In this document: piece after piece, positions 3-17,850 of the stretch
How positions within the stretch are numbered: position 1 is the first letter of the stretch
Layout of the letters: each line of letters begins with the position of its first letter
Source: a virus
Length of the DNA: 21,911 nt
Virus record (IMG/VR): IMGVR_UViG_3300049491_000865
Span: 1 to 21,911 of that record
Reading direction: 5' to 3' (one strand)
Position numbers and translations under genes: made by a program
Notes under the pieces: model-generated
Databases searched by the model: none
Told to the model about the DNA's origin: nothing
The model's input: the letters and a program-made list of their open reading frames with translations, nothing else

Positions 3-1811
3 CTAGCCTCTCTCATCGGCTTCATTGACGTTGGCGTTGCGGATCCAGTCCTGGGTGGCGCGAGCCTCAGTGCGTTCGAGATCGAGGTCGCGGGCGAAGA
101 CGACGGTGCCACCCAGGGTTCCGAGGAGAGCTGCGATGGAGATGCTGTTGCGCAACGCCTCCCTCACGGCCGGCGTTGAATCGAGGATCCCCATCTCGAT
201 GGGGTCTCCGTGCTTGCTGTCCATGGCATCGTAGACGAGCACCTGGTCGTTCTTCATCGCCTCCAAGATGGGGGCGAGTACGGCTCTGGTCTCATCTCCT
301 GTCATGCCGCAGTTCGAGAGCAGGCGATGAACGGGCTCGACGAGCGCTTGCTTGAGGATGCCGTTGATGATGGGGTCATCGGGGTAGGCTGCGTTCAGGG
401 CCTTGACGACCCGCATCAGCGCCCAGCCGCCGCCTGGAAGACAGCCGTGCTTGATGGCGCCGCGAACGGCGCAGACGGCGTCCTCAGCGCGGTCTCGCTT
501 TTCCTTCAGTTCGCCGTTGCTGGCTCCGATGACTCGGAGCTTGGCGATGCCGCCGGTGAGCTTGCCCAGGCGCTCCTGGAGCAGGCCACGGTCGTAGTCG
601 GACTCGGGGTTCTCCAACTGGGTCGTGACGATGTCGACCTGATCCATCTCCCGCGTCTTCCAGGGTTCGCCATGAGCCGAGGCGCGACCGAGGATGATGG
701 AGCGGAAGCGACCGGCCTCGAAGGCGGTGGTGCCGGGCCCGAGGTCTTCCAGGGTTCCGGTGTCGAGGGGGCGATTGATGGGGTCGAAGATGGTGGCGCC
801 GGTGATGGCGGACAGATCCTCTAGGAACTGGGTCTGGCTGTTGAGCAGCGCCGTCTTGGGGACGACGAGGGGGAAGATCTTGAGGGCGTTGGGGAGCTGG
901 AAGCCGGCGGCGAAGGTGCCGAGCACCTGCTCCGAAAAGCCGATGGCGACGAAGACCACGGACGTGTGGCGGTACTCCGTCTGCTTGCCCTCGATCAAGT
1001 CCTGGAACATGGCGCCAACCTTGTCCAGGATGGAGTAGGCGACGAGGACGTCCGTTAGGGTTCCGTGGTAGAGGACGTAGACGGGGTTCTCCAATACCGT
1101 CATCTGTCGGGCGGCATCGTTGATGTACTTGGGGTGGAACTTGGCGCAGCTTTCCTCGTACCCCATGCCGATGGGGAAGCCATCGATCTCCTCGACCTCG
1201 TAGGAGGAGGGGCCTGAAGTCTCGGTGATGGTGACGTTACCTTCGTCGCCGACGAGGTTGAAACATCGCATGACGGCGTCGGCCAGCGGCTCATCGCCAT
1301 TGGCAGAGACGCGGGCGACGTTGCGCAGGAGCTTCTGGCCTTCTTCGGAAGTGGAGTCGACCTTAATCGACAAGTCGGCGATCGTGGGCTCGATAACGTC
1401 CTTGAACGCTTGTTCGAGGCGGCGCACGGCCCGCTGCGGACTCACCCTGGGGTTGGCGGTGCAGAAGAAGTCGGTGTAGCGAACGATGGCTTCGGCAAGG
1501 ATGGTGGCGGTGGTAGTGCCATCACCCGCCTCAGACGCCGTTCGGATGGCGGCATCTCTTGCCGCTTCCATGATGCAGTGCTTGGCCGGGTCGACAAAGC
1601 CGAGGCTTCTGAAGACTGTGACTCCGTCCTTGGTCACGATCGGCGGCATCCCGTGCTCGAAGCGCTCGATCATGACCTGGCGCCCACCAGGGCCAAGCGT
1701 GTCCCCGACAACGTCGGAAATGGTCTTCATGGTTTCGAGAACCATCTTGGACAGGCGCGGCCCCTTGGGCGTCACCTGCTTCGCTACCGACTTGACCTTC
1801 TGATACTCCAC
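3..1811 (-). CDS. groEL: Phage-encoded GroEL-type chaperonin (Cpn60)
   Basis: A 602-aa group I chaperonin that would fold phage, probably virion, proteins in an ATP-driven double ring. GroEL signatures run the whole length: DTLGPGGRQV (37-46), TKDGVTV (60-66), GDGTTTATILAEA (96-108), KLTGGIAKLRV (417-427), RAEDAVCAVRGA (441-452), PGGGWAL (459-465) and MGILDST (540-546). The three aspartates used for ATP hydrolysis in E. coli GroEL (D52, D87, D398) have counterparts D62, D97 and D444, so the protein looks active. It is about 55 aa longer than bacterial GroEL, has a divergent apical region, and ends in a charged tail instead of the Gly-Gly-Met repeats. The start is GTG, chosen because CAGGAG lies 8 nt upstream and the following residues fit the family. 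A GATTCGCTATAAG motif lies about 30 nt upstream, overlapping the helicase stop codon. The matching GroES-like gene is at 7299-7598. Family assignment is firm; the substrate is unknown. Confidence 0.96.
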   Translation of the reverse strand: MEYQKVKSVAKQVTPKGPRLSKMVLETMKTISDVVGDTLGPGGRQVMIERFEHGMPPIVTKDGVTVFRSLGFVDPAKHCIMEAARDAAIRTASEAGDGTTTATILAEAIVRYTDFFCTANPRVSPQRAVRRLEQAFKDVIEPTIADLSIKVDSTSEEGQKLLRNVARVSANGDEPLADAVMRCFNLVGDEGNVTITETSGPSSYEVEEIDGFPIGMGYEESCAKFHPKYINDAARQMTVLENPVYVLYHGTLTDVLVAYSILDKVGAMFQDLIEGKQTEYRHTSVVFVAIGFSEQVLGTFAAGFQLPNALKIFPLVVPKTALLNSQTQFLEDLSAITGATIFDPINRPLDTGTLEDLGPGTTAFEAGRFRSIILGRASAHGEPWKTREMDQVDIVTTQLENPESDYDRGLLQERLGKLTGGIAKLRVIGASNGELKEKRDRAEDAVCAVRGAIKHGCLPGGGWALMRVVKALNAAYPDDPIINGILKQALVEPVHRLLSNCGMTGDETRAVLAPILEAMKNDQVLVYDAMDSKHGDPIEMGILDSTPAVREALRNSISIAALLGTLGGTVVFARDLDLERTEARATQDWIRNANVNEADERG

Positions 1812-1840: not shown

Positions 1841-1855
1841 GCTTATAGCGAATCT
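1841..1855 (-). promoter_or_regulatory. Promoter-like motif upstream of groEL
   Basis: On the minus strand this reads GATTCGCTATAAGC, one of five near-identical copies in the window. It overlaps the TAG stop of the DnaB-like gene and lies about 30 nt before the groEL GTG, leaving room for a short leader with the CAGGAG ribosome site. If TATAAG is the -10 element, transcription would start near 1834. Promoter function is inferred from repetition and position. Confidence 0.6.
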
Positions 1856-3377
1856 AGCCGCCGGCCCTGGCCTTGAGCGGGGTCGGGCTGATTTCGGCCT
1901 CTTGTGCGGCCTGGACCGTGTCCTTGGCCCAGTACGGGATCTCGGCGCCCGTCAATTCCTCCCACTCGTACCCACTCTTGGTGAGGGCGTACGTCTCCTG
2001 GTATCGACTGCTGCGGGCGTCAAAGTTGCAGAGGCCCACGTAACGAGTCCTGGAGCCATCGAGCCGAGACTTGACGGCCCCGATGTAGGTCGGCCACAGG
2101 TACGACTTGCCAGTGGCGTGCCCCGGATCGTCGGCCCTGTCCAGCATGATGCAGGTGGTAGCGATCTTGGGCACGTCCGAGGTCCCGTGAAACTCCTCGA
2201 TCATGGGGACGAGGGTGCGGGCCTTGTTGGCGCCTGACGGTGCCTTGCGCAGGTGGGCGATGACGATGACTGGAATCCCGAAGCGGAGGACGATGTCGCG
2301 GATGAGCTTGATCGTCTGCTTGTAGGCGTGGTTCTCGTCCTCGTTGGTGTCGATGTAGTGCAAGTGGTCGATGATGATGAGCCGAGACTTTGTCACAACC
2401 TTCATCAGGTTCTTCTCCAGGGCCCGGAGGTCGAAGCTGCCGCTGGTGCGGTAGAGGGTCTGGAGATTGCCGACAGCCTTGAAGATCTTCTCGCGTTCGC
2501 TCTCCTCAAACGGCTTCATGACGCGATCGATCTTGCCCATGCGCCATTCGCCGTAGCCGATCTGGGGGGCGTCGTCGCCGCGCCTGCGGTAGTAGGCGGA
2601 TGAGATGAGGCCGTACTTGATGCGGCGCTCAATCTCATTGTTCTCGGCTTCGAGGGCGAAGTAGTGGACGGGGTACCCGGCCTGGGCGTTGTGCATGGCG
2701 ATGGCGGTGGCGAGCTGAGTCTTTCCGGCTCCGGTCTTGGCGCCGAGGACGATGAGGTCGTTGGGGATGATGCCACCGAGGTTGTCGTCGAGAAACTTGA
2801 CCCCGAACTGGAGGATCCGCTTCGACTGCTCCATGCGCTCCTCACGCTCTTCGTCGATGCGCTCTACCGCAGGCTTGAAGCCTTGGCTGATCCCCTCCTC
2901 GAAGGAGGCGGTGGCCTTCACCAGGGTGGCGTCCTCAACCACGGCCCAGGCGTCATCGAGCTTCTTCGCGTTGAAGGTGTTGACGGCTTGCTGGATCGAC
3001 TGACCGAAGATGACCGCCTTCATCCACATCGTCATCTCGTTGCGGAGGATGTCGAGGCCGTAGAACTTGGACTGCTTCAAGCAATCCGCCATCACCTCGG
3101 GGATGCGCTTCTGTAAGATGGCGTCCTCTTGCGTGAAGGGGCGGTACTCCTTCAGCTCGTGGGGAGAAGGGCGGCGGTGGTACTGGTTGTAGATGTCGAC
3201 GATGGCGCCGTAGATCTTGGCGACAGTGGGAGAGCTGAACCACTCCGTCTTCACCACGGCCACGCACTGCATGCAGAAGAGGTCGTCTTGCATGGCCCAG
3301 CCCACGATAGCTGCTTGCTTGGTCTGATCGAAGGCGAGGCTGGTGTCGAGGGTGAACGTCTTCTGGGTCTCGGACAT
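1854..3377 (-). CDS. dnaB: Replicative DNA helicase, DnaB family
   Basis: A 507-aa SF4 (RecA-fold) helicase expected to unwind the phage replication fork as a hexamer. The C-terminal ATPase domain has Walker A GAKTGAGKT (212-220), an ALEAE segment (241-245) at the place of the catalytic glutamate region, Walker B LIIIDHLHYI (333-342; D337), and IVIAHLRK (371-378), where DnaB proteins have a conserved sensor strand. Residues 394-412 (EEFHGTSDVPKIATTCIML) match the DnaB segment preceding the arginine finger. The N-terminal ~180 residues are helical and end in a charged linker (172-187), as in DnaB, but are divergent. The ATG lies 3 nt after the stop of the upstream DUF1376-like gene, with AGGAG about 14 nt before it, so the two are probably cotranscribed. 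Pairing of an initiator/loader candidate with a helicase is a common phage replication arrangement. Confidence 0.92.
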   Translation of the reverse strand: MSETQKTFTLDTSLAFDQTKQAAIVGWAMQDDLFCMQCVAVVKTEWFSSPTVAKIYGAIVDIYNQYHRRPSPHELKEYRPFTQEDAILQKRIPEVMADCLKQSKFYGLDILRNEMTMWMKAVIFGQSIQQAVNTFNAKKLDDAWAVVEDATLVKATASFEEGISQGFKPAVERIDEEREERMEQSKRILQFGVKFLDDNLGGIIPNDLIVLGAKTGAGKTQLATAIAMHNAQAGYPVHYFALEAENNEIERRIKYGLISSAYYRRRGDDAPQIGYGEWRMGKIDRVMKPFEESEREKIFKAVGNLQTLYRTSGSFDLRALEKNLMKVVTKSRLIIIDHLHYIDTNEDENHAYKQTIKLIRDIVLRFGIPVIVIAHLRKAPSGANKARTLVPMIEEFHGTSDVPKIATTCIMLDRADDPGHATGKSYLWPTYIGAVKSRLDGSRTRYVGLCNFDARSSRYQETYALTKSGYEWEELTGAEIPYWAKDTVQAAQEAEISPTPLKARAGG

Positions 3378-3380
3378 TTG

Positions 3381-4202
3381 CTAGTTGCTCTCCTGCTTGC
3401 GGGGGTCATTTCCTTCGAGCCACATCTTCTTGCGGTCTTCGGTCCAGTACTGGTTCAGCTCCTGCTTGACGTCCTCAGTGTCGTAGGTGCCCGGTTGCCA
3501 GGGCGGTTTCTCGCCCGGTGCCCTGGTTGGGGGTGTTACGGGTGCGGTGTTGTCGACCGGCTTGAAGGAGAAGTTCTTGGGGACGTAGCCGTTCCAGCAC
3601 GTCATGAACCTGCCCAGCCCCATCGTGAACTTCTTCCTGTCGTTCGGATCCCGCTCCTGGGCCCGCTCCCGCTTGTAGGCCTTGACGGCGGCCCATAGAC
3701 GTTGGTACTCTTCCTCTGTTGTGATGGTGTCACTCATCAGCTTGAGGCCTTCGGTGAGACCACCCTTGTTGGGTGGGTAGTCATTCAGGATCGGGGAGAA
3801 GTCGAAGGTGGGGGTGGGTTCGGAGTCTGAAGACGAAGAAGACTTCAGAGGAGATGGCTTCAACTCGTAGCGTTTATTGACGTTTTCCTTATTTCTGAAG
3901 GAGGCAGAGTCGGTTTCCTCGATGACGTCAGCCAACCTGTGGTTGAGCATCTTCGTCTTGTCCTCGGGGAGGAAGTTGAACTTCGCCATCACCCTCTTGC
4001 TGAGGAGGCGATCGACCTCTTCGTCGGACTTGACGTTGAACAGCCTTTTGAGACCGTCAATGTCCATGTCCACGTAACCATCCACCATTTGTCTGACCAG
4101 GAGAGTCCAGTAGACACCGACCTCCTCCATGGTTAGCTTCTGGACGGTGCCGCTTGCGGCCCAGTCCATGTGGTAGAACCGAACCCAGGGTCTCTTTCCC
4201 AT
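3381..4202 (-). CDS. DUF1376-like replication protein, candidate helicase loader/initiator
   Basis: A 273-aa protein. The N-terminal ~70 residues (RFYHMDWAASGTVQKLT, EEVGVYWTLLVRQMVDGYV) resemble the DUF1376 domain, a winged-helix-like domain found in phage and prophage replication proteins. A low-complexity Ser/Pro linker follows (about 115-132, with SSSSSDSEPTPT), then a basic C-terminal half (150-273) that I do not recognise. Domain, linker, C-terminal domain followed directly by a DnaB helicase gene is typical of phage initiator or helicase-loader proteins, so that role is inferred from position. The start is ATG with GAGGAG 7 nt upstream. It is the first gene of the minus-strand operon, and a GATTCGCTATAAG motif lies about 20 nt upstream. 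No Walker motif is visible, so it is not a DnaC-type AAA+ loader. Confidence 0.65.
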   Translation of the reverse strand: MGKRPWVRFYHMDWAASGTVQKLTMEEVGVYWTLLVRQMVDGYVDMDIDGLKRLFNVKSDEEVDRLLSKRVMAKFNFLPEDKTKMLNHRLADVIEETDSASFRNKENVNKRYELKPSPLKSSSSSDSEPTPTFDFSPILNDYPPNKGGLTEGLKLMSDTITTEEEYQRLWAAVKAYKRERAQERDPNDRKKFTMGLGRFMTCWNGYVPKNFSFKPVDNTAPVTPPTRAPGEKPPWQPGTYDTEDVKQELNQYWTEDRKKMWLEGNDPRKQESN

Positions 4203-4220
4203 TGATCTCTCCTCGCAACC

Positions 4221-4233
4221 CTTATAGCGAATC
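4221..4233 (-). promoter_or_regulatory. Promoter-like motif upstream of the replication operon
   Basis: On the minus strand this reads GATTCGCTATAAG followed by GGTTGC, then GAGGAG and the ATG at 4202. It is the strongest match to the window-wide consensus. With TATAAG as the -10 element the mRNA would start about 12 nt before the ATG, just before the ribosome site. The sequence upstream shows no clear TTGACA-type -35 box. It faces away from the copy at 4388-4400. Confidence 0.65.
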
Positions 4234-4257
4234 AGGTTTGAACCTTGAAGCTCTAGT

Positions 4258-4287
4258 TACGAGTCGTAGCTACGAGCCGTAGTACGA
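4258..4287. repeat. Palindromic TACGA repeats in the divergent intergenic region
   Basis: TACGAGTCGTA (4258-4268) is a perfect odd palindrome. TACGAGCCGTA (4271-4281) is the same element with one mismatch, and a further TACGA half-site begins at 4283. Start-to-start spacing is 13 and 12 bp. Such clustered palindromes are typical of operator sites for a dimeric DNA-binding protein; which protein binds is unknown. Confidence 0.5.
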
Positions 4288-4310
4288 ACCCCTGTATAGA
4301 AGAGAACTGT

Positions 4311-4370
4311 ACTGACTTGACCTGACCAGCACTGACCAGAAGTGACTTGCATTGTCTTGCACTAACTCAG
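4311..4370. repeat. Six tandem 10-bp direct repeats (iteron-like array)
   Basis: Six consecutive 10-bp units: ACTGACTTGA, CCTGACCAGC, ACTGACCAGA, AGTGACTTGC, ATTGTCTTGC and ACTAACTCAG. The shared core is TGAC[TC][TA]G, and the last two units are more degenerate. The 10-bp period places each core on nearly the same face of the helix. The array lies between the divergent replication operon and the UvsW-like helicase gene, outside any convincing coding sequence. Candidate roles, by inference, are replication-origin iterons or an array of activator/repressor sites serving both flanking promoters. Confidence 0.6.
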
Positions 4371-4387
4371 AATACAGATCATCAAGA

Positions 4388-4400
4388 GATTCGCTATATA
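4388..4400 (+). promoter_or_regulatory. Promoter-like motif upstream of the UvsW-like helicase
   Basis: GATTCGCTATATA, a copy of the repeated motif on the plus strand. Taking TATATA as the -10 hexamer (-12 to -7), position +1 falls exactly on the GTG at 4407 that best fits as the helicase start. This predicts a leaderless mRNA. No -35 element is apparent upstream; the 10-bp repeat array ends 18 bp before it. Confidence 0.6.
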
Positions 4401-4406
4401 GTTCAA

Positions 4407-5936
4407 GTGGTAGTCCTAGAAACTCCAACCAGAGCCCGCTTGGTCGGGTATGAACCCAGGGAGGCAACCCTGGAGAAGGCATTGTCCTACACGGACAAGA
4501 AGGTGGAGTTTGAACTCTCAAGGATCCAAAAGTCTGCTCACTTCTGGAGACAGAAGCTGGGGGAAGAGGAGTTTAAGAGAAGGGTCGATGCCCTGAAGGC
4601 AGAACGGAAGAAGTCTCTCCTCTTCAGAGACGAGGAAGGACTCTTCACCTACAGCGGACTCGGATCAAGAATCGCTGTTGCCGGAAGCGACGTCATCGAG
4701 AGAAGGTACAACCTCCCCGACTTCGACATCATGCCCTGGGCCAACAAGCCCAAGTACAAGGATCGCCCCTACCAGGTAGAGGCTCACGACAAGCTCATCG
4801 AAGCTGTTCAACACGGTCCCTGCGGCGTCGAGCTGGCAACTGGAGCTGGGAAGTCGACCATCATCCGCAACGTCCTGAAGACGATTGCTCTCGAAGCCGT
4901 CGTCATGGCTCCTTCAAAGTCGATCGCTGGTCAGCTCTACGACGATCTGTGCCACCACTTCGGCAAGCGCTACGTGGGCATGGTTGGCGATGGCAAGAAG
5001 GACTTTAAGAAGCACATTGTCGTGGCTATCGATGATAGCCTCTCGCTGGTAGAACCTGGCACCGAGATCTGGAATGCGCTCTCCTCGAAGCCGGTTTTTA
5101 TCGCTGATGAGAGCCACCTGTGCCCGGCTCAGTCGTTGGCGAAGGTCTGCTTCGGTCTGATGAAGAATGCCCCCTATCGCATGTTCTTTTCAGCGACCCA
5201 GATGCGCAACGATGGCCTCGACCTCGTCCTGGACGGAATCACCGGCAACATCGTCATACACAAGAACGTCCGCGAGCTGGTGGACGAGGGGTATCTGGCC
5301 AAGCCCATCTTCAAGATCGTCAAGTGCCAATCGAACAGCAGCTACGACAGCAAGGATGCGGTCCTCATGACGAGGAAGCACCTGTTCTACAATCGGATCG
5401 TCACCGAGATTGCTGCCGACCTCGCCAACAAGTTTGTCTCTCACATGAAGCGCCCCACCATCATCCTCGTCGAGGAAGTTGAGCAGTTCGGGCGCCTGCT
5501 GCCGCACCTCAAGCACGAGGCTCGTTTCGCCCACGGCCCCTTGACGAAAGAGAACAAGGAGTCCGTCCCCGAGGCCTACCACAAGGACAAGCCCAAAGAT
5601 CTGGTGCAGCTCTTCAACGAGGGCAAGCTCCCCATCCTCGTTGGCACAAGCTGCATCGCTACCGGTACCGACATTCAGGTTGCTGAGGCCGAGATCTATC
5701 TCATGGGCGGCAAGTCAGAGATCAAGGTCAAGCAGGGGCTTGGCCGCGAGACCAGAGGTGGCTTCAAAGGTAGCGTCGTCAATCCTTGGACCGGAAAGCA
5801 AAAGCTAGACAGCATCCACGTCGATTTTGAGGTCTCAAACATCGACATCCTCACGCGGCACGCCGACGAGCGTGCCTCCATCTATGCCGATGTTTATGAC
5901 GCACCGTCGTACATCGACATGACCGACTTCATGTAG
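4407..5936 (+). CDS. uvsW: SF2 DNA/RNA helicase, UvsW-like
   Basis: A 509-aa superfamily 2 helicase, close to the 503 aa of T4 UvsW, which rewinds and branch-migrates recombination intermediates and removes R-loops at origins. Counting from the GTG at 4407, motifs in order are: RPYQVEA, a Q-motif-like element (120-126); Walker A ATGAGKST (144-151); DESH (234-237); SAT (262-264); and motif VI QGLGRETR (443-450). The N-terminal ~100 residues (LETPTRARLVGYEP, LEKALSYTDKKVE, LLFRDEEGLFTYSG) look like the small accessory domain of the UvsW group. I chose GTG 4407 because family-like sequence begins there and a promoter-like motif lies immediately before it. An upstream in-frame ATG at 4347 would place the repeat array and the motif inside the coding region. 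The first ATG after that start falls well inside the conserved N-terminal region. No ribosome site precedes the GTG. Confidence 0.9.
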   Translation: MVVLETPTRARLVGYEPREATLEKALSYTDKKVEFELSRIQKSAHFWRQKLGEEEFKRRVDALKAERKKSLLFRDEEGLFTYSGLGSRIAVAGSDVIERRYNLPDFDIMPWANKPKYKDRPYQVEAHDKLIEAVQHGPCGVELATGAGKSTIIRNVLKTIALEAVVMAPSKSIAGQLYDDLCHHFGKRYVGMVGDGKKDFKKHIVVAIDDSLSLVEPGTEIWNALSSKPVFIADESHLCPAQSLAKVCFGLMKNAPYRMFFSATQMRNDGLDLVLDGITGNIVIHKNVRELVDEGYLAKPIFKIVKCQSNSSYDSKDAVLMTRKHLFYNRIVTEIAADLANKFVSHMKRPTIILVEEVEQFGRLLPHLKHEARFAHGPLTKENKESVPEAYHKDKPKDLVQLFNEGKLPILVGTSCIATGTDIQVAEAEIYLMGGKSEIKVKQGLGRETRGGFKGSVVNPWTGKQKLDSIHVDFEVSNIDILTRHADERASIYADVYDAPSYIDMTDFM

Positions 5937-5942
5937 GAGCCT

Positions 5943-6236
5943 ATGGACCACAACACGCTCATTGCCCTCTGTATCACTGGTTGGCTCTTGCTGCCAACCA
6001 TATTCTACCTCATCGGTGCCATGGTTCAGCGCGCCGTTGGCGTGGACAGAGAGGCGCCGGAAGCGCCGTTCTGTTGGCGGGGCATCAATCTCGCCCTTGG
6101 CGATGGCGTTGACCATCCCGAAGCATGTCAAGAGCTACGCGGTCTCAGGGCTGCTGGCTGGCACATCGAGAAGCAGGGTAGCGAGCGTGGCGGCTTCGTC
6201 TACCTTAAGTGCATCGCGCCTGGGCACAAGGAGTAG
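5943..6236 (+). CDS. Small single-span membrane protein, unknown
   Basis: A 97-aa protein I do not recognise. Residues 5-27 (LIALCITGWLLLPTIFYLIGA, then MV) form one hydrophobic membrane segment close to the N-terminus. The remaining ~70 residues are polar and probably form a small domain ending in EKQGSERGGFVYLKCIAPGH. The gene begins 6 nt after the UvsW-like stop; the GGAG ribosome site adjoins that TAG stop codon, and the next gene's ATG follows its own stop by 2 nt. It therefore looks cotranslated with the helicase and sigma-factor genes. No function can be assigned. Confidence 0.75.
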   Translation: MDHNTLIALCITGWLLLPTIFYLIGAMVQRAVGVDREAPEAPFCWRGINLALGDGVDHPEACQELRGLRAAGWHIEKQGSERGGFVYLKCIAPGHKE

Positions 6237-6238
6237 TC

Positions 6239-7273
6239 ATGGCGATGATGATTGACGATCCGCATTTCCGCAATTTCGCTACCTCCCTTGAGCACGCCAT
6301 TGAGTGTTGCGGAGAGACCGATGACGAGGACTTCCTTGCCAGGCAGAAGCGTCAGGTTGAGACCCTTGTCTTCTTGGAGAAGCAGTTCAAAAAGACCGTG
6401 ATCGGGTCTGCCAAGGGAGAGCGCATCTACAAGGGTTTCGTCAAGTTTATTTGTGACGAGCGGAAGAACATCCTTGACGCACGCCCCTACTTCAGGGAAC
6501 GCCAGCACGTCTTCACCAAGTACATCTCCACGGCCTTGCGCAAGAGGGCGGTGAAGCAGCTCTATCGCTTCAACTTCAACTACCGCTTCGTCCAGTTCGT
6601 CATGAACTTCTGCCCCTGGAAGCCGAAGTCGCCGATCACGAAGCTCGCAAACCAGATCCGCGCCATCCGTGACGAGCTGATTACGATGAATATGCCGCTT
6701 GCTATCTCGCGAGCCCGCATCTTCTACAGTCGCACCCCCAAAGCCCACCTCACTTACATGGACCTGATCCAGATCGCTTGCGAGGGCTTGATGTCGGGCA
6801 TCGACAAGTTCGTGCTCCCGTTCTCGAAGGCCTTCCGTAGTGTCGCCATCGGTCGCATGACCGGCAACTTCATCGAGAACTACTCGGAGACCCAGATCCA
6901 TTTCTATCCCGTCGACAAGCGCAAGCTGTACCGCGCCAACAAGCTGGTCGGGCGAGGCGCCACGACAGCAACCACGGTCGACTTCACAGACCTCGCCAAG
7001 AACGTCAACAAAGGTGTCGAGCCCGCACACCGCACCAACGCATCGGAGATCGCAAACCTCATGTCAGCAGCATCAACAGTTTCATCAGATACGCCCGTCA
7101 GCGATGACGATGACGAGACAGCCCGCGTCTCCGACCGCTTTGCAGCCCCAGCGGACACCCAGCCCGATGTCATCTGTGAACGTGCCGACAGCATGCGTCA
7201 GATGGCAGAGGCTATGACCGTCCTGAGTGCTTTCGAGCAGAAGGTGCTCCAGCTCAGGGGCGTAAGCCTGTAG
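6239..7273 (+). CDS. Divergent sigma-70-family factor lacking region 4.2 (gp55-like)
   Basis: A 344-aa protein with a recognisable sigma region 2. The segment about 150-216 contains MNMPLAISRARIFYS, then TYMDLIQIACEGLMSGIDKF (the sigma 'DLIQEGNIGLMKAVDKF' core), then FRSVAIGRMTGNFIENYS where regions 2.3-2.4 contact the -10 element. IHFYPVDKRKLYRANK follows, like the IRIPVH...KLNK segment after region 2 in sigma factors. The C-terminus, LSAFEQKVLQLRGVSL, resembles the start of region 4 (LPPREREVLRLRYGL) but stops there, so the helix-turn-helix that binds -35 boxes is absent. T4 gp55 likewise lacks this domain and uses only a -10-like element. The ~130-residue N-terminal extension is unassigned; an acidic patch (SDDDDE) lies near 288-293. 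The ATG at 6239 has AAGGAG 6 nt upstream. Inferred role: directing host RNA polymerase to the TTCGCTATA motif. Confidence 0.75.
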   Translation: MAMMIDDPHFRNFATSLEHAIECCGETDDEDFLARQKRQVETLVFLEKQFKKTVIGSAKGERIYKGFVKFICDERKNILDARPYFRERQHVFTKYISTALRKRAVKQLYRFNFNYRFVQFVMNFCPWKPKSPITKLANQIRAIRDELITMNMPLAISRARIFYSRTPKAHLTYMDLIQIACEGLMSGIDKFVLPFSKAFRSVAIGRMTGNFIENYSETQIHFYPVDKRKLYRANKLVGRGATTATTVDFTDLAKNVNKGVEPAHRTNASEIANLMSAASTVSSDTPVSDDDDETARVSDRFAAPADTQPDVICERADSMRQMAEAMTVLSAFEQKVLQLRGVSL

Positions 7274-7278
7274 GGTGT

Positions 7279-7290
7279 GTTTCGCTATAG
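7279..7290 (+). promoter_or_regulatory. Promoter-like motif upstream of the GroES-like gene
   Basis: GTTTCGCTATAG, the most divergent of the five copies (it lacks the GA before TTCGCTATA). It lies in the 25-bp gap between the sigma-factor gene and the GroES-like gene. With TATAGG as the -10 element, +1 would be the base just before the ATG at 7299. The GGAGAGG in between could instead act as a ribosome site on read-through mRNA. Confidence 0.5.
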
Positions 7291-7298
7291 GAGAGGTG

Positions 7299-7598
7299 AT
7301 GCTCACAGTCAACAAGAAGATCGCGTGTACCCCCTTCGAGACCACCCAGGTCAGGGTAGAAGTCAAGGGCGGTCTACCCATGCTCAAGCAGAAGCAGGAG
7401 CTGTCGAAGCTACAGGTCGTGCTCACGACCGAGGACCACTTCTATCGAGCAGGCGACTCCATCTTGGTCAGAGGAGACGCCTGCAAGCTCCAGTTCGCGA
7501 GGGAGGTGTACGAGGAAGGTGACAAGACCTTCATCCTCATCCCCTACGACATCGTCGTCGCGATCATCAGACCAGAAGGCGATGACGAGCGATGGTAA
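7299..7598 (+). CDS. groES: GroES-like cochaperonin
   Basis: A 99-aa protein the size of bacterial GroES (97 aa), which caps the GroEL ring. The C-terminal half follows the family pattern: FYRAGDSILVRGDACKL (48-64) matches the 'vGDrVLf.kyaGtev' strand, and KTFILIPYDIVVAI (76-89) matches 'eeylilreeDIlavi'. The N-terminal strand KIACTPFETTQVRV leads into VKGGLPMLKQ (22-31), which sits where the GroEL-binding mobile loop with its Gly-Gly-hydrophobic motif is expected. Overall identity is low, as for T4 gp31. The assignment is strengthened by the GroEL gene in the same window. GGAGAGG lies just upstream of the ATG. The last 7 nt overlap the next gene. Preceded by a copy of the TTCGCTATA motif. 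Confidence 0.75.
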   Translation: MLTVNKKIACTPFETTQVRVEVKGGLPMLKQKQELSKLQVVLTTEDHFYRAGDSILVRGDACKLQFAREVYEEGDKTFILIPYDIVVAIIRPEGDDERW

Positions 7599-8371
7599 GC
7601 GAAGACAGTCTCGGCGACCGCATGAAGGGGTACGAAGGCGTGCCCAGGAACAGGCTCGTCCCCAAGATGCCGGTCATGATCAGGCTCGATGGCAAGGCCT
7701 TCCACACCTTCACCAGGGGCATGCCACGCCCTTACCACCGCCCCTTCCACGAGTGCATGTGGACGGCCGCCACCTACCTCTGTGAGAACATCCAGGGCTG
7801 TCAGGTGGCGTACGTTCAGAGTGACGAGATCACGCTCTTACTCACCGACTACTCCAGCATCAAGACGCAGGCGTGGTTCGACTACGAGGTCCAGAAGATG
7901 GCCTCGATCGCTGCCTCCATGTGTACGGCTGCATTCAACTTCGCCCTGGCCGTCAACGCCGTCGGCAGGCCCGGGTTTGCTACCTTCGACGCCAGGGTCT
8001 GGAACCTGCCCAAGGAAGAGATCGTCAACGCCTTCATCTGGCGTCAGCAGGACGCTACCCGCAACGCCATTCAGATGGTGGGGCAGGCGCGTTTCAGTCA
8101 CAAGGAGCTGCACGGCAAGAGTTGCGACAACATCCAGGAGATGTTGTTCAAGGTCCACGGCATCAACTTCAACGACAGCCCGGTTCCGCAGAAGCGCGGC
8201 GTCTGCGTCGTCAAGGAGACTTACAACGTACAAGTGAAGTGTGGCACTGATCCAGATGGGTCGGAGTGGTCGGACTACGTCCGACGCACGCGCTGGGTCG
8301 CGGATGAGAACATCCCCATCTTCACCCAGGACCGCGCATACATCCAGCGCTTCGTGGACGTCGGCGAATGA
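7592..8371 (+). CDS. thg1: Thg1-like tRNA 3'-5' polymerase / tRNA(His) guanylyltransferase family
   Basis: A 259-aa Thg1-family enzyme; these add nucleotides in the 3'-to-5' direction, either G-1 on tRNA(His) or, in Thg1-like proteins, template-directed repair of tRNA 5' ends. Visible motifs are IRLDGKAFHTFTRG (30-43), with metal-binding D33; YVQSDEITLLL (74-84), with D78 and E79; KMASIAASMCTAAF (102-115); FDARVWNLP (132-140); and WRQQDATRNAI (150-160). The HINNLYN motif of eukaryotic Thg1 is replaced by ATRNAIQ, pointing to the Thg1-like (TLP) branch. SHKELHGKS (169-177) follows. The ATG overlaps the GroES-like gene by 7 nt, and the stop overlaps the next start as ATGA, so it sits inside a tight operon. 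No tRNA gene is visible in the window, so the substrate would be host tRNAs or phage tRNAs elsewhere. Confidence 0.92.
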   Translation: MVSEDSLGDRMKGYEGVPRNRLVPKMPVMIRLDGKAFHTFTRGMPRPYHRPFHECMWTAATYLCENIQGCQVAYVQSDEITLLLTDYSSIKTQAWFDYEVQKMASIAASMCTAAFNFALAVNAVGRPGFATFDARVWNLPKEEIVNAFIWRQQDATRNAIQMVGQARFSHKELHGKSCDNIQEMLFKVHGINFNDSPVPQKRGVCVVKETYNVQVKCGTDPDGSEWSDYVRRTRWVADENIPIFTQDRAYIQRFVDVGE

Positions 8372-15801: not shown

Positions 15802-15834
15802 ATCTAAGAAGCTCTGTCTGAATCTTAGATTTAT
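15798..15834 (+). promoter_or_regulatory. RNA hairpin covering the start codon of the second HNH gene
   Basis: GTAGATCTAAGA (15798-15809) can pair with TCTTAGATTTAT (15823-15834): 10 Watson-Crick and 2 G-U pairs around a 13-nt loop. The stem contains the portal stop codon on one side and AU of the HNH start codon (15833) on the other, so the folded mRNA would hide the start. Ribosomes finishing the portal gene could open it. T4 gene 49 (endonuclease VII) is known to be controlled by a leader hairpin; similarity of role here is inference. Confidence 0.55.
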
Positions 15835-16234
15835 GGCAAGGACACAACAAGAAAAAGCCGAAGCCCGCAAAGTCGCATCTCTCAAGTATGCCCAAAAGCC
15901 AGAGGCAAAGGCAAAGGCTGCTGAGAGGTACCGAAGGGTTCGCGACAATTCGGACTTTAAGACGAAGTCTAGGGCAAGCAAGCTGATGAGAGACCACGGA
16001 CTAACGCTGGTGGAGTACGACAAGATGCTTGCGTCCCAGATGTTTACTTGTGCAATCTGTGAGAAGCCATTTTCTGCCGCTGTCCCGAGAAGCGCGATGT
16101 CGCCCGTAGTTGATCACTGTCACAGTTCTAGCAAGATTCGAGGGATCTTGCATAGGAAGTGTAATGCTGCCATCGGTATTTTTCAGGACGACCCCACCCT
16201 TCTTCAAAAGTCGGCGAAGTACCTGGAGCGATAA
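15833..16234 (+). CDS. HNH endonuclease, recombination endonuclease VII family (copy 2)
   Basis: A 133-aa paralogue of the nuclease at 12254-12658, alignable through HGLT..YD.ML, C..C, VDHCH and RG(I/L)L...CN. Core residues are C73, C76, D94, H95, H97, C110 and N111. The third zinc ligand, Cys in copy 1, is His107 here (RGILHRKCN), which could still bind zinc. Copy 2 has a 10-residue longer loop between the first CxxC and DH. The N-terminus (1-48) is very basic. The gene looks less GC-rich than its neighbours, suggesting separate acquisition. No ribosome site precedes the ATG, which is predicted to lie in an RNA hairpin; the stop shares one base with the next start. Confidence 0.85.
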   Translation: MARTQQEKAEARKVASLKYAQKPEAKAKAAERYRRVRDNSDFKTKSRASKLMRDHGLTLVEYDKMLASQMFTCAICEKPFSAAVPRSAMSPVVDHCHSSSKIRGILHRKCNAAIGIFQDDPTLLQKSAKYLER

Positions 16235-17835: not shown

Positions 17836-17850
17836 TCATAGCGAATCTAG
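17836..17850 (-). promoter_or_regulatory. Promoter-like motif upstream of the RlpA-like gene
   Basis: The minus strand reads CTAGATTCGCTATGA. It shares the 15-mer GGCTAGATTCGCTAT with the groEL copy, and both overlap the TAG stop of the preceding gene. With TATGAC as the -10 element, +1 falls on the ATG at 17828, the same spacing as at the UvsW-like gene. This would give the RlpA-like gene its own leaderless transcript. Confidence 0.55.

Follow-up and report, generated by a model that had tools for sequence, protein, structure and literature searches.

A helix-phased array of 10-bp repeats at a divergent gene junction as a candidate replication origin in a virus related to Myxococcus phage Mx1

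The window that we analysed, the entire IMG/VR record IMGVR_UViG_3300049491_000865 (a virus contig of 21,911 bp that represents a fragment of a large uncultured phage), carries six tandem 10-bp repeats between divergent replication genes (Table 1). We have moderate confidence that these repeats constitute a putative initiator-binding (iteron-like) array of a replication origin situated inside a divergent control region. An earlier note on this DNA had proposed either an origin with iterons or a shared control region, and both ideas gained partial support: the control region through a pair of outward-facing motifs, and the origin through the GC skew in seven of ten relatives and the AT- and repeat-rich character of the junction. 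An origin and an operator share most of this anatomy; the skew and AT results tip the balance towards an origin.

The array follows an exact 10-bp period with the consensus NNNTGAC[TC][TA]G. Its mean pairwise identity, scored as the best six-unit array of period 10, is 0.66, a value reached by none of 2000 dinucleotide shuffles (maximum 0.46), so that the six tandem units described in the earlier note are real, although they lie one base further to the left than the originally given span of 4311-4370. Period 10 is the strongest among periods 6-25 (z 10.4; null maximum 5.6), and the array ranks first among those of period 10 in the 21.9-kb record, with nothing comparable elsewhere in it. The TGAC[TC][TA]G core is matched at 7/7 positions in four units (cores at 4313, 4323, 4333, and 4343), at 6/7 in one and at 4/7 in one. 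The decay towards the helicase gene that had been described is present, but it is not confined to that side; the flanks fade in both directions, with 5/7 matches at 4293 and 4303 and a 4/7 match at 4363. Direct repeats with fixed, helix-phased spacing, as found at iteron origins, are thus a feature of this array.

The 5-bp sub-period seen at the beginning of the array (TGACT TGACC TGACC), and the occurrence of similar TGAC-type 5- or 10-bp arrays in unrelated viral contigs, would fit a functionless, drifting short tandem repeat generated by slippage of 5- or 10-bp units. We consider this highly improbable, since the spacer bases differ between the units while the core is kept, the record's only such array sits between matched promoter-like motifs, and the arrays that relatives have in this position are built from unrelated units. 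Where exact TGACYWG arrays turned up elsewhere, the contigs lacked the window's proteins. Tandem 10-bp arrays of the TGAC type are present in the viral contigs L094, L081, L078, L097, and L072, in which window proteins were not detected.

As the earlier note had stated, the genes on the two sides of the array diverge, with a DUF1376-like/primosomal gene to the left and a superfamily-2 helicase gene to the right. The leftward operon combines the DUF1376-like/primosomal gene with that of a DnaB-like helicase, and this arrangement, together with synteny in about 30 relatives, speaks for an origin. The DUF1376-like protein is a candidate initiator or regulator. Its full-length AlphaFold model is poor (mean pLDDT 50), its N-terminal domain (pLDDT 67) had no PDB match at E<=0.001, and a pattern search found no close relatives of it. 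Elsewhere, the window encodes two endonuclease VII-type proteins (PF02945; 12254-12658, between the TerL and portal-region genes, and 15833-16234, after the portal gene), a tRNA-His guanylyltransferase (Thg1; 7592-8371), and a fatty acid hydroxylase-like protein (PF04116; 17008-17484).

An open frame running from TTG 4347, and a weak terminator-like hairpin on the minus strand (4332-4309), could be taken to mean that the array is part of a coding frame or an RNA feature such as a leader, a terminator or a small RNA; we judge this to be extremely improbable. The proteins of relatives align from GTG 4407, so that TTG 4347 is not the start of the helicase gene. Terminator matches did not exceed those in shuffles (one found versus 0.5 expected), and, seen from either promoter-like motif, the array region is upstream. 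The junction region had no tRNA, no Rfam match, no sigma-70 -35/-10 pair, and no nucleotide similarity to known phages.

Table 1. Features of the window around the array, and inverted pairs at the corresponding junctions of relatives.
Feature	Position	Strand	Remarks
GroEL-type chaperonin gene	3-1811	-	own GATTCGCTATA copy at 1844-1854 (-)
Third exact GATTCGCTATA copy	1844-1854	-	upstream of GroEL
DnaB-like replicative helicase gene	1854-3377	-	
DUF1376-like/primosomal protein gene	3381-4202	-	phrog_9327, 5.9e-8; PF07120, 25.1 bits (below the 30.1 cut-off)
Promoter-like element GATTCGCTATA	4223-4233	-	faces DUF1376 gene; inverted partner of 4388-4398
Tandem near-palindromes TACGAGTCGTA and TACGAGCCGTA	4258-4281		11 bp each, 13 bp apart, left of array
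Array of six 10-bp units	4310-4369		
Array unit 1	start 4310		tacTGACTTG
Array unit 2	start 4320		accTGACCAG
Array unit 3	start 4330		cacTGACCAG
Array unit 4	start 4340		aagTGACTTG
Array unit 5	start 4350		catTGTCTTG
Array unit 6	start 4360		cacTAACTCA
AT-rich stretch	4363-4406		68% AT (record 40%); adjoins array on helicase side
Promoter-like element GATTCGCTATA	4388-4398	+	faces helicase gene; 8 nt before GTG
Superfamily-2 helicase gene	4407-5936	+	phrog_16, ResIII; GTG 4407 start backed by relatives
RNA polymerase sigma factor gene	6209-7273	+	phrog_351, 5.4e-14
One-mismatch variant GTTTCGCTATA	7279-7289	+	9 nt before ATG
One-mismatch variant GATTCGCTATG	17837-17847	-	8 nt before ATG
Junction inverted pair, L007			GTTCGCTATAGG
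Junction inverted pair, L016			CGTTCGCTATAG
Junction inverted pair, L032			CGATTCGCTAGAA
Junction inverted pair, L041			AGATTCGCTA
Junction inverted pair, L044			AGTTTCGCTAC
Junction inverted pair, L046			GATTCGATAGA
Junction inverted pair, L053			TCGCTATACG
Junction inverted pair, L002			AAACGTGCTATA
Junction inverted pair, Mx1			TCTAATAGCGAG / CTCGCTATTAGA

Within the 204-bp divergent intergenic region (4203-4406), the array is enclosed by two 11-nt sequences, TATAGCGAATC at 4223 and GATTCGCTATA at 4388, which form a perfect inverted pair (p 0.002 in shuffles), so that, at the level of motifs, an outward-facing putative promoter is present on each side. The tandem near-palindromes to the left of the array, inside this pair, are putative operator-like sites. 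On the helicase side, the array adjoins the 44 nt with the highest AT content anywhere in the record; windows of 50 and 60 nt peak there as well. An AT-rich stretch of this kind is what an iteron origin would have, and we regard it as a candidate unwinding element; it overlaps the helicase promoter region and is hence not exclusive to an origin.

The outward-facing motifs, whose core occurs genome-wide in one relative (55 copies in G001), are also what one would expect if the array were purely a transcriptional operator through which a host regulator, or the DNA-binding protein encoded to the left, switches the divergent promoters, with replication starting elsewhere. We regard this, the chief rival reading, as a real, if lesser, possibility. 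Operator repeats would be expected to overlap the promoter core, but the array ends 18 bp short of the helicase element.

All five copies of the element in the window lie in sense orientation, with gaps of 8, 9, 8, 20, and 32 nt to the start codon, and the 8-mer TTCGCTAT is present in five copies versus 0.67 expected. The core TTCGCTATA has 55 copies in G001 (the L007 record, 168,646 bp) versus 0-3 in reversed controls; for G002, a relative of 96 kb, the corresponding counts are 35 and one. Of the 55 copies in G001, 42 lie between genes, and start codons tend to follow the element at a distance of 7-9 nt; an alignment of these copies revealed no -35 consensus. We infer that TTCGCTATA serves in G001 as a phage-wide promoter of genes with very short leaders or nearly none, one that the phage sigma factor may possibly read. 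A sigma factor without region 4 was considered as an explanation for the missing -35 element and was rejected, because the profile matches reach residue 350, into region 4. A search with PF00940 for a single-subunit RNA polymerase as the promoter reader was silent, as it was for the control genomes. The G009 genome (the L046 record, 182,279 bp) holds 24 copies of a cognate variant, TTCGATAGA, 22 of them intergenic, and the promoter motif thus seems to have drifted between lineages. The inverted pair of Mx1 and of some other relatives is not a genome-wide motif, and the promoter reading of the element can therefore be called firm only for part of the family. In phage AR9, a promoter motif found by overrepresentation is likewise repeated genome-wide before many genes (PMC5312081). 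The putative promoter motif described here differs in being TTCGCTATA, which mostly stands 7-9 nt before the start codon, in a phage that carries a sigma factor.

Protein searches recovered about 30 viral contigs that share the gene block GroEL(-) ... helicase(+) sigma(+) SbcD-like(+) TerL(+) portal(+). The sole cultured member found is Myxococcus phage Mx1 (OR576727), whose TerL and sigma factor are 45% and 42% identical, respectively, to those of the window. In the relatives found with an intact junction, identity over the best protein segment did not exceed about 66%, and none of them had a TGACYWG array; exact TGACYWG units were absent from the records of the seven relatives that were searched. 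The earlier note would have taken the absence of the repeat pattern from relatives with this gene order as a refutation: the exact units are indeed absent from the relatives examined, but the architecture persists in most of them, as an array of another sequence in this position. In many relatives, a perfect outward-facing inverted pair brackets the junction (Table 1). Its two copies are the same within a genome and differ between lineages, which argues that one factor probably reads both. Used as a search pattern, the window's inverted pair matched only contigs that lack the window's proteins.

When internal repeats were scored against shuffles in 25 regions (23 junctions and two leaders), 20 exceeded the shuffles at p<=0.03, namely the junctions of 18 relatives, the window, and the L007 leader. 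The repeats themselves are varied: four copies (three direct, one inverted half) of the 23-bp palindrome TCACTTCGGCCATTCCGAAGTGA in L044 (6198-6315), a tandem repeat of about 22 bp in L034, four copies of GGTATAATTGGTATG in L002, and GTCAAATGCCGTTCA-type repeats in L010, L012, and L021. The same junction of L058 (6049-6513) contains a 100-nt perfect inverted repeat and repeats of about 78 bp with strong hairpins. Ranked by repeat content among the intergenic regions of each of ten long relatives, the junction came out at 2/45, 1/37, 1/36, 10/50, 3/53, 2/56, 2/60, 5/52, 15/47, and 2/38, that is first to third in seven genomes with 36-60 such regions each; the value of 2/60 (G011) refers to the region directly upstream of the helicase gene, and a second region of that interval ranks first. 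The compact junctions of L041, L046, and L053 are without arrays, and those of G001, G004, and G009 have little or no array.

The first gene to the left of the junction codes, in many relatives, for a small winged-helix protein that resembles transcription regulators, a point in favour of a purely transcriptional operator. Pfam HTH matches lay above the cut-off for L030, L034, L036, and L017 and below it for Mx1, L010, and L002; the motif TD..L..R.V.RYLK.L...G.I is common to eleven winged-helix proteins, some of which are BLAST homologues of one another. In the group to which the window belongs, a DUF1376-like protein takes this place, and L016 alone has a firm assignment (68 bits). Repeat words tend to be shared where the winged-helix proteins are close (L005/L032, L010/L012/L021, L013/L014), a further point for the operator reading. 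Five of the seven most similar pairs of leftward proteins share several junction 9-mers (e.g., CCCCATTAGGG in L005/L032), and shared 9-mers came to 2.3 for related protein pairs versus 0.56 for unrelated ones; shared ancestry could explain this.

The earlier note had suggested cumulative GC skew as a check on the origin. In its raw form this proved uninformative, because it follows gene strand, and it was inconsistent between genomes. We therefore resorted to a strand-corrected test, in which the third-position GC skew of each gene is compared with its direction of transcription relative to the fork for each possible origin, and this gave a signal in relatives. It was run on ten long relatives; the window, as a fragment, lies outside it. 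Relative to the start of the helicase gene, the best-fit origins fell at +1.8, +15.2, +5.3, +4.1, -0.9, +8.3, -24.2, -69.7, +0.2, and +1.4 kb, hence within 10 kb of the junction in seven of ten genomes; 200 trials of a block-shift null that keeps the correlation between neighbours averaged 1.07 such genomes and never exceeded 5. With the terminus left free and genes within 10 kb removed, seven of the ten still lay within 12 kb. For Mx1, the 10-90% bootstrap interval of the origin is -2.2 to +1.4 kb. The test has kilobase resolution, gene classes are unevenly distributed between the arms, the genomes are related, and contigs were treated as circular. Composition that marks forks leaving the site, as expected of an iteron origin, is accordingly seen in relatives and at kilobase resolution. 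The sharpest skew origin belongs to G009 despite its compact junction, so arrays are not obligatory. Such compact junctions, and the genomes G011 and G015, which gave no skew origin, count against the array being part of an origin.

The most AT-rich 40 nt of the entire genome are found at the junction in Mx1, G012, and G014. In G005 no intergenic region is more AT-rich than the junction, and in G013 it is second; G001, G004, G009, G011, and G015 have no AT extreme there. In G012, G014, and G013, the AT-rich stretch flanks the array towards the helicase gene, as it does in the window. A purely transcriptional operator predicts neither a compositional origin nor an AT stretch that is extreme for the genome. 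In Mx1, the most repeat-rich intergenic region (OR576727, 102,699-102,876), with palindromic repeats of the TTAATCC type, is located near the point opposite the proposed origin. DnaA boxes are common at iteron origins without being obligatory, and phage origins may not need them; no TTWTNCACA sequence is present in the window.

The iterons of lambda and of satellite phage P4 are read by an adjacent initiator, and those of P4 are short decamers. Lambda-type switch regions, most of which are not origins, contain repeated binding sites for proteins, flanked by two promoters that point outwards. At PICI origins, sets of iterons flank an AT-rich region (PMC6092414). With the iteron origins (lambda O/ori, P4 alpha/ori, PICI pri-rep-ori), the window shares helix-phased direct repeats next to an AT-rich stretch and replication genes. 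It differs from them in that its array, unrelated in sequence, sits between two matched divergent promoter-like motifs, and in that the candidate initiator, predicted from sequence, is a DUF1376-like or winged-helix protein. The repeats between two outward promoter-like motifs recall the lambda-type divergent operators, but the flanking genes are replication genes and the array is a 10-bp tandem. Mx1 has the same gene block and divergent junction, with an inverted pair, repeats, an AT-rich core, and a winged-helix gene (product WNM70306) of its own; unlike the window, it has neither DUF1376 nor DnaB beside the junction, and its repeat units are unrelated. The literature on origin arrays, DUF1376, and leaderless phage promoters yielded nothing on this locus. 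We found no published replication origin for the Mx1-like phage group, and the Mx1 announcement mentions none (PMC10720576).

If the array is the initiator-binding part of an origin, the leftward gene product (DUF1376-like in the window, a small winged-helix protein in many relatives) would bind the repeats along a single helical face. Once bound, it would load the DnaB-like helicase on the neighbouring AT-rich DNA and thereby start bidirectional replication, and the same binding would tune both divergent promoters. More tentatively, the Mx1-like family may keep its origin at the conserved divergent junction, with the array and the specificity of the neighbouring winged-helix initiator or regulator being continually replaced together and the matched inverted promoter pair drifting in concert on both sides. 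Were the origin reading right, Mx1 and Myxococcus xanthus would provide a cultured model with a precise, testable origin, and the family would offer naturally varied initiator/array pairs at a single locus, in which changes of initiator specificity could be studied, along with a phage-wide promoter motif that the phage sigma factor might read.
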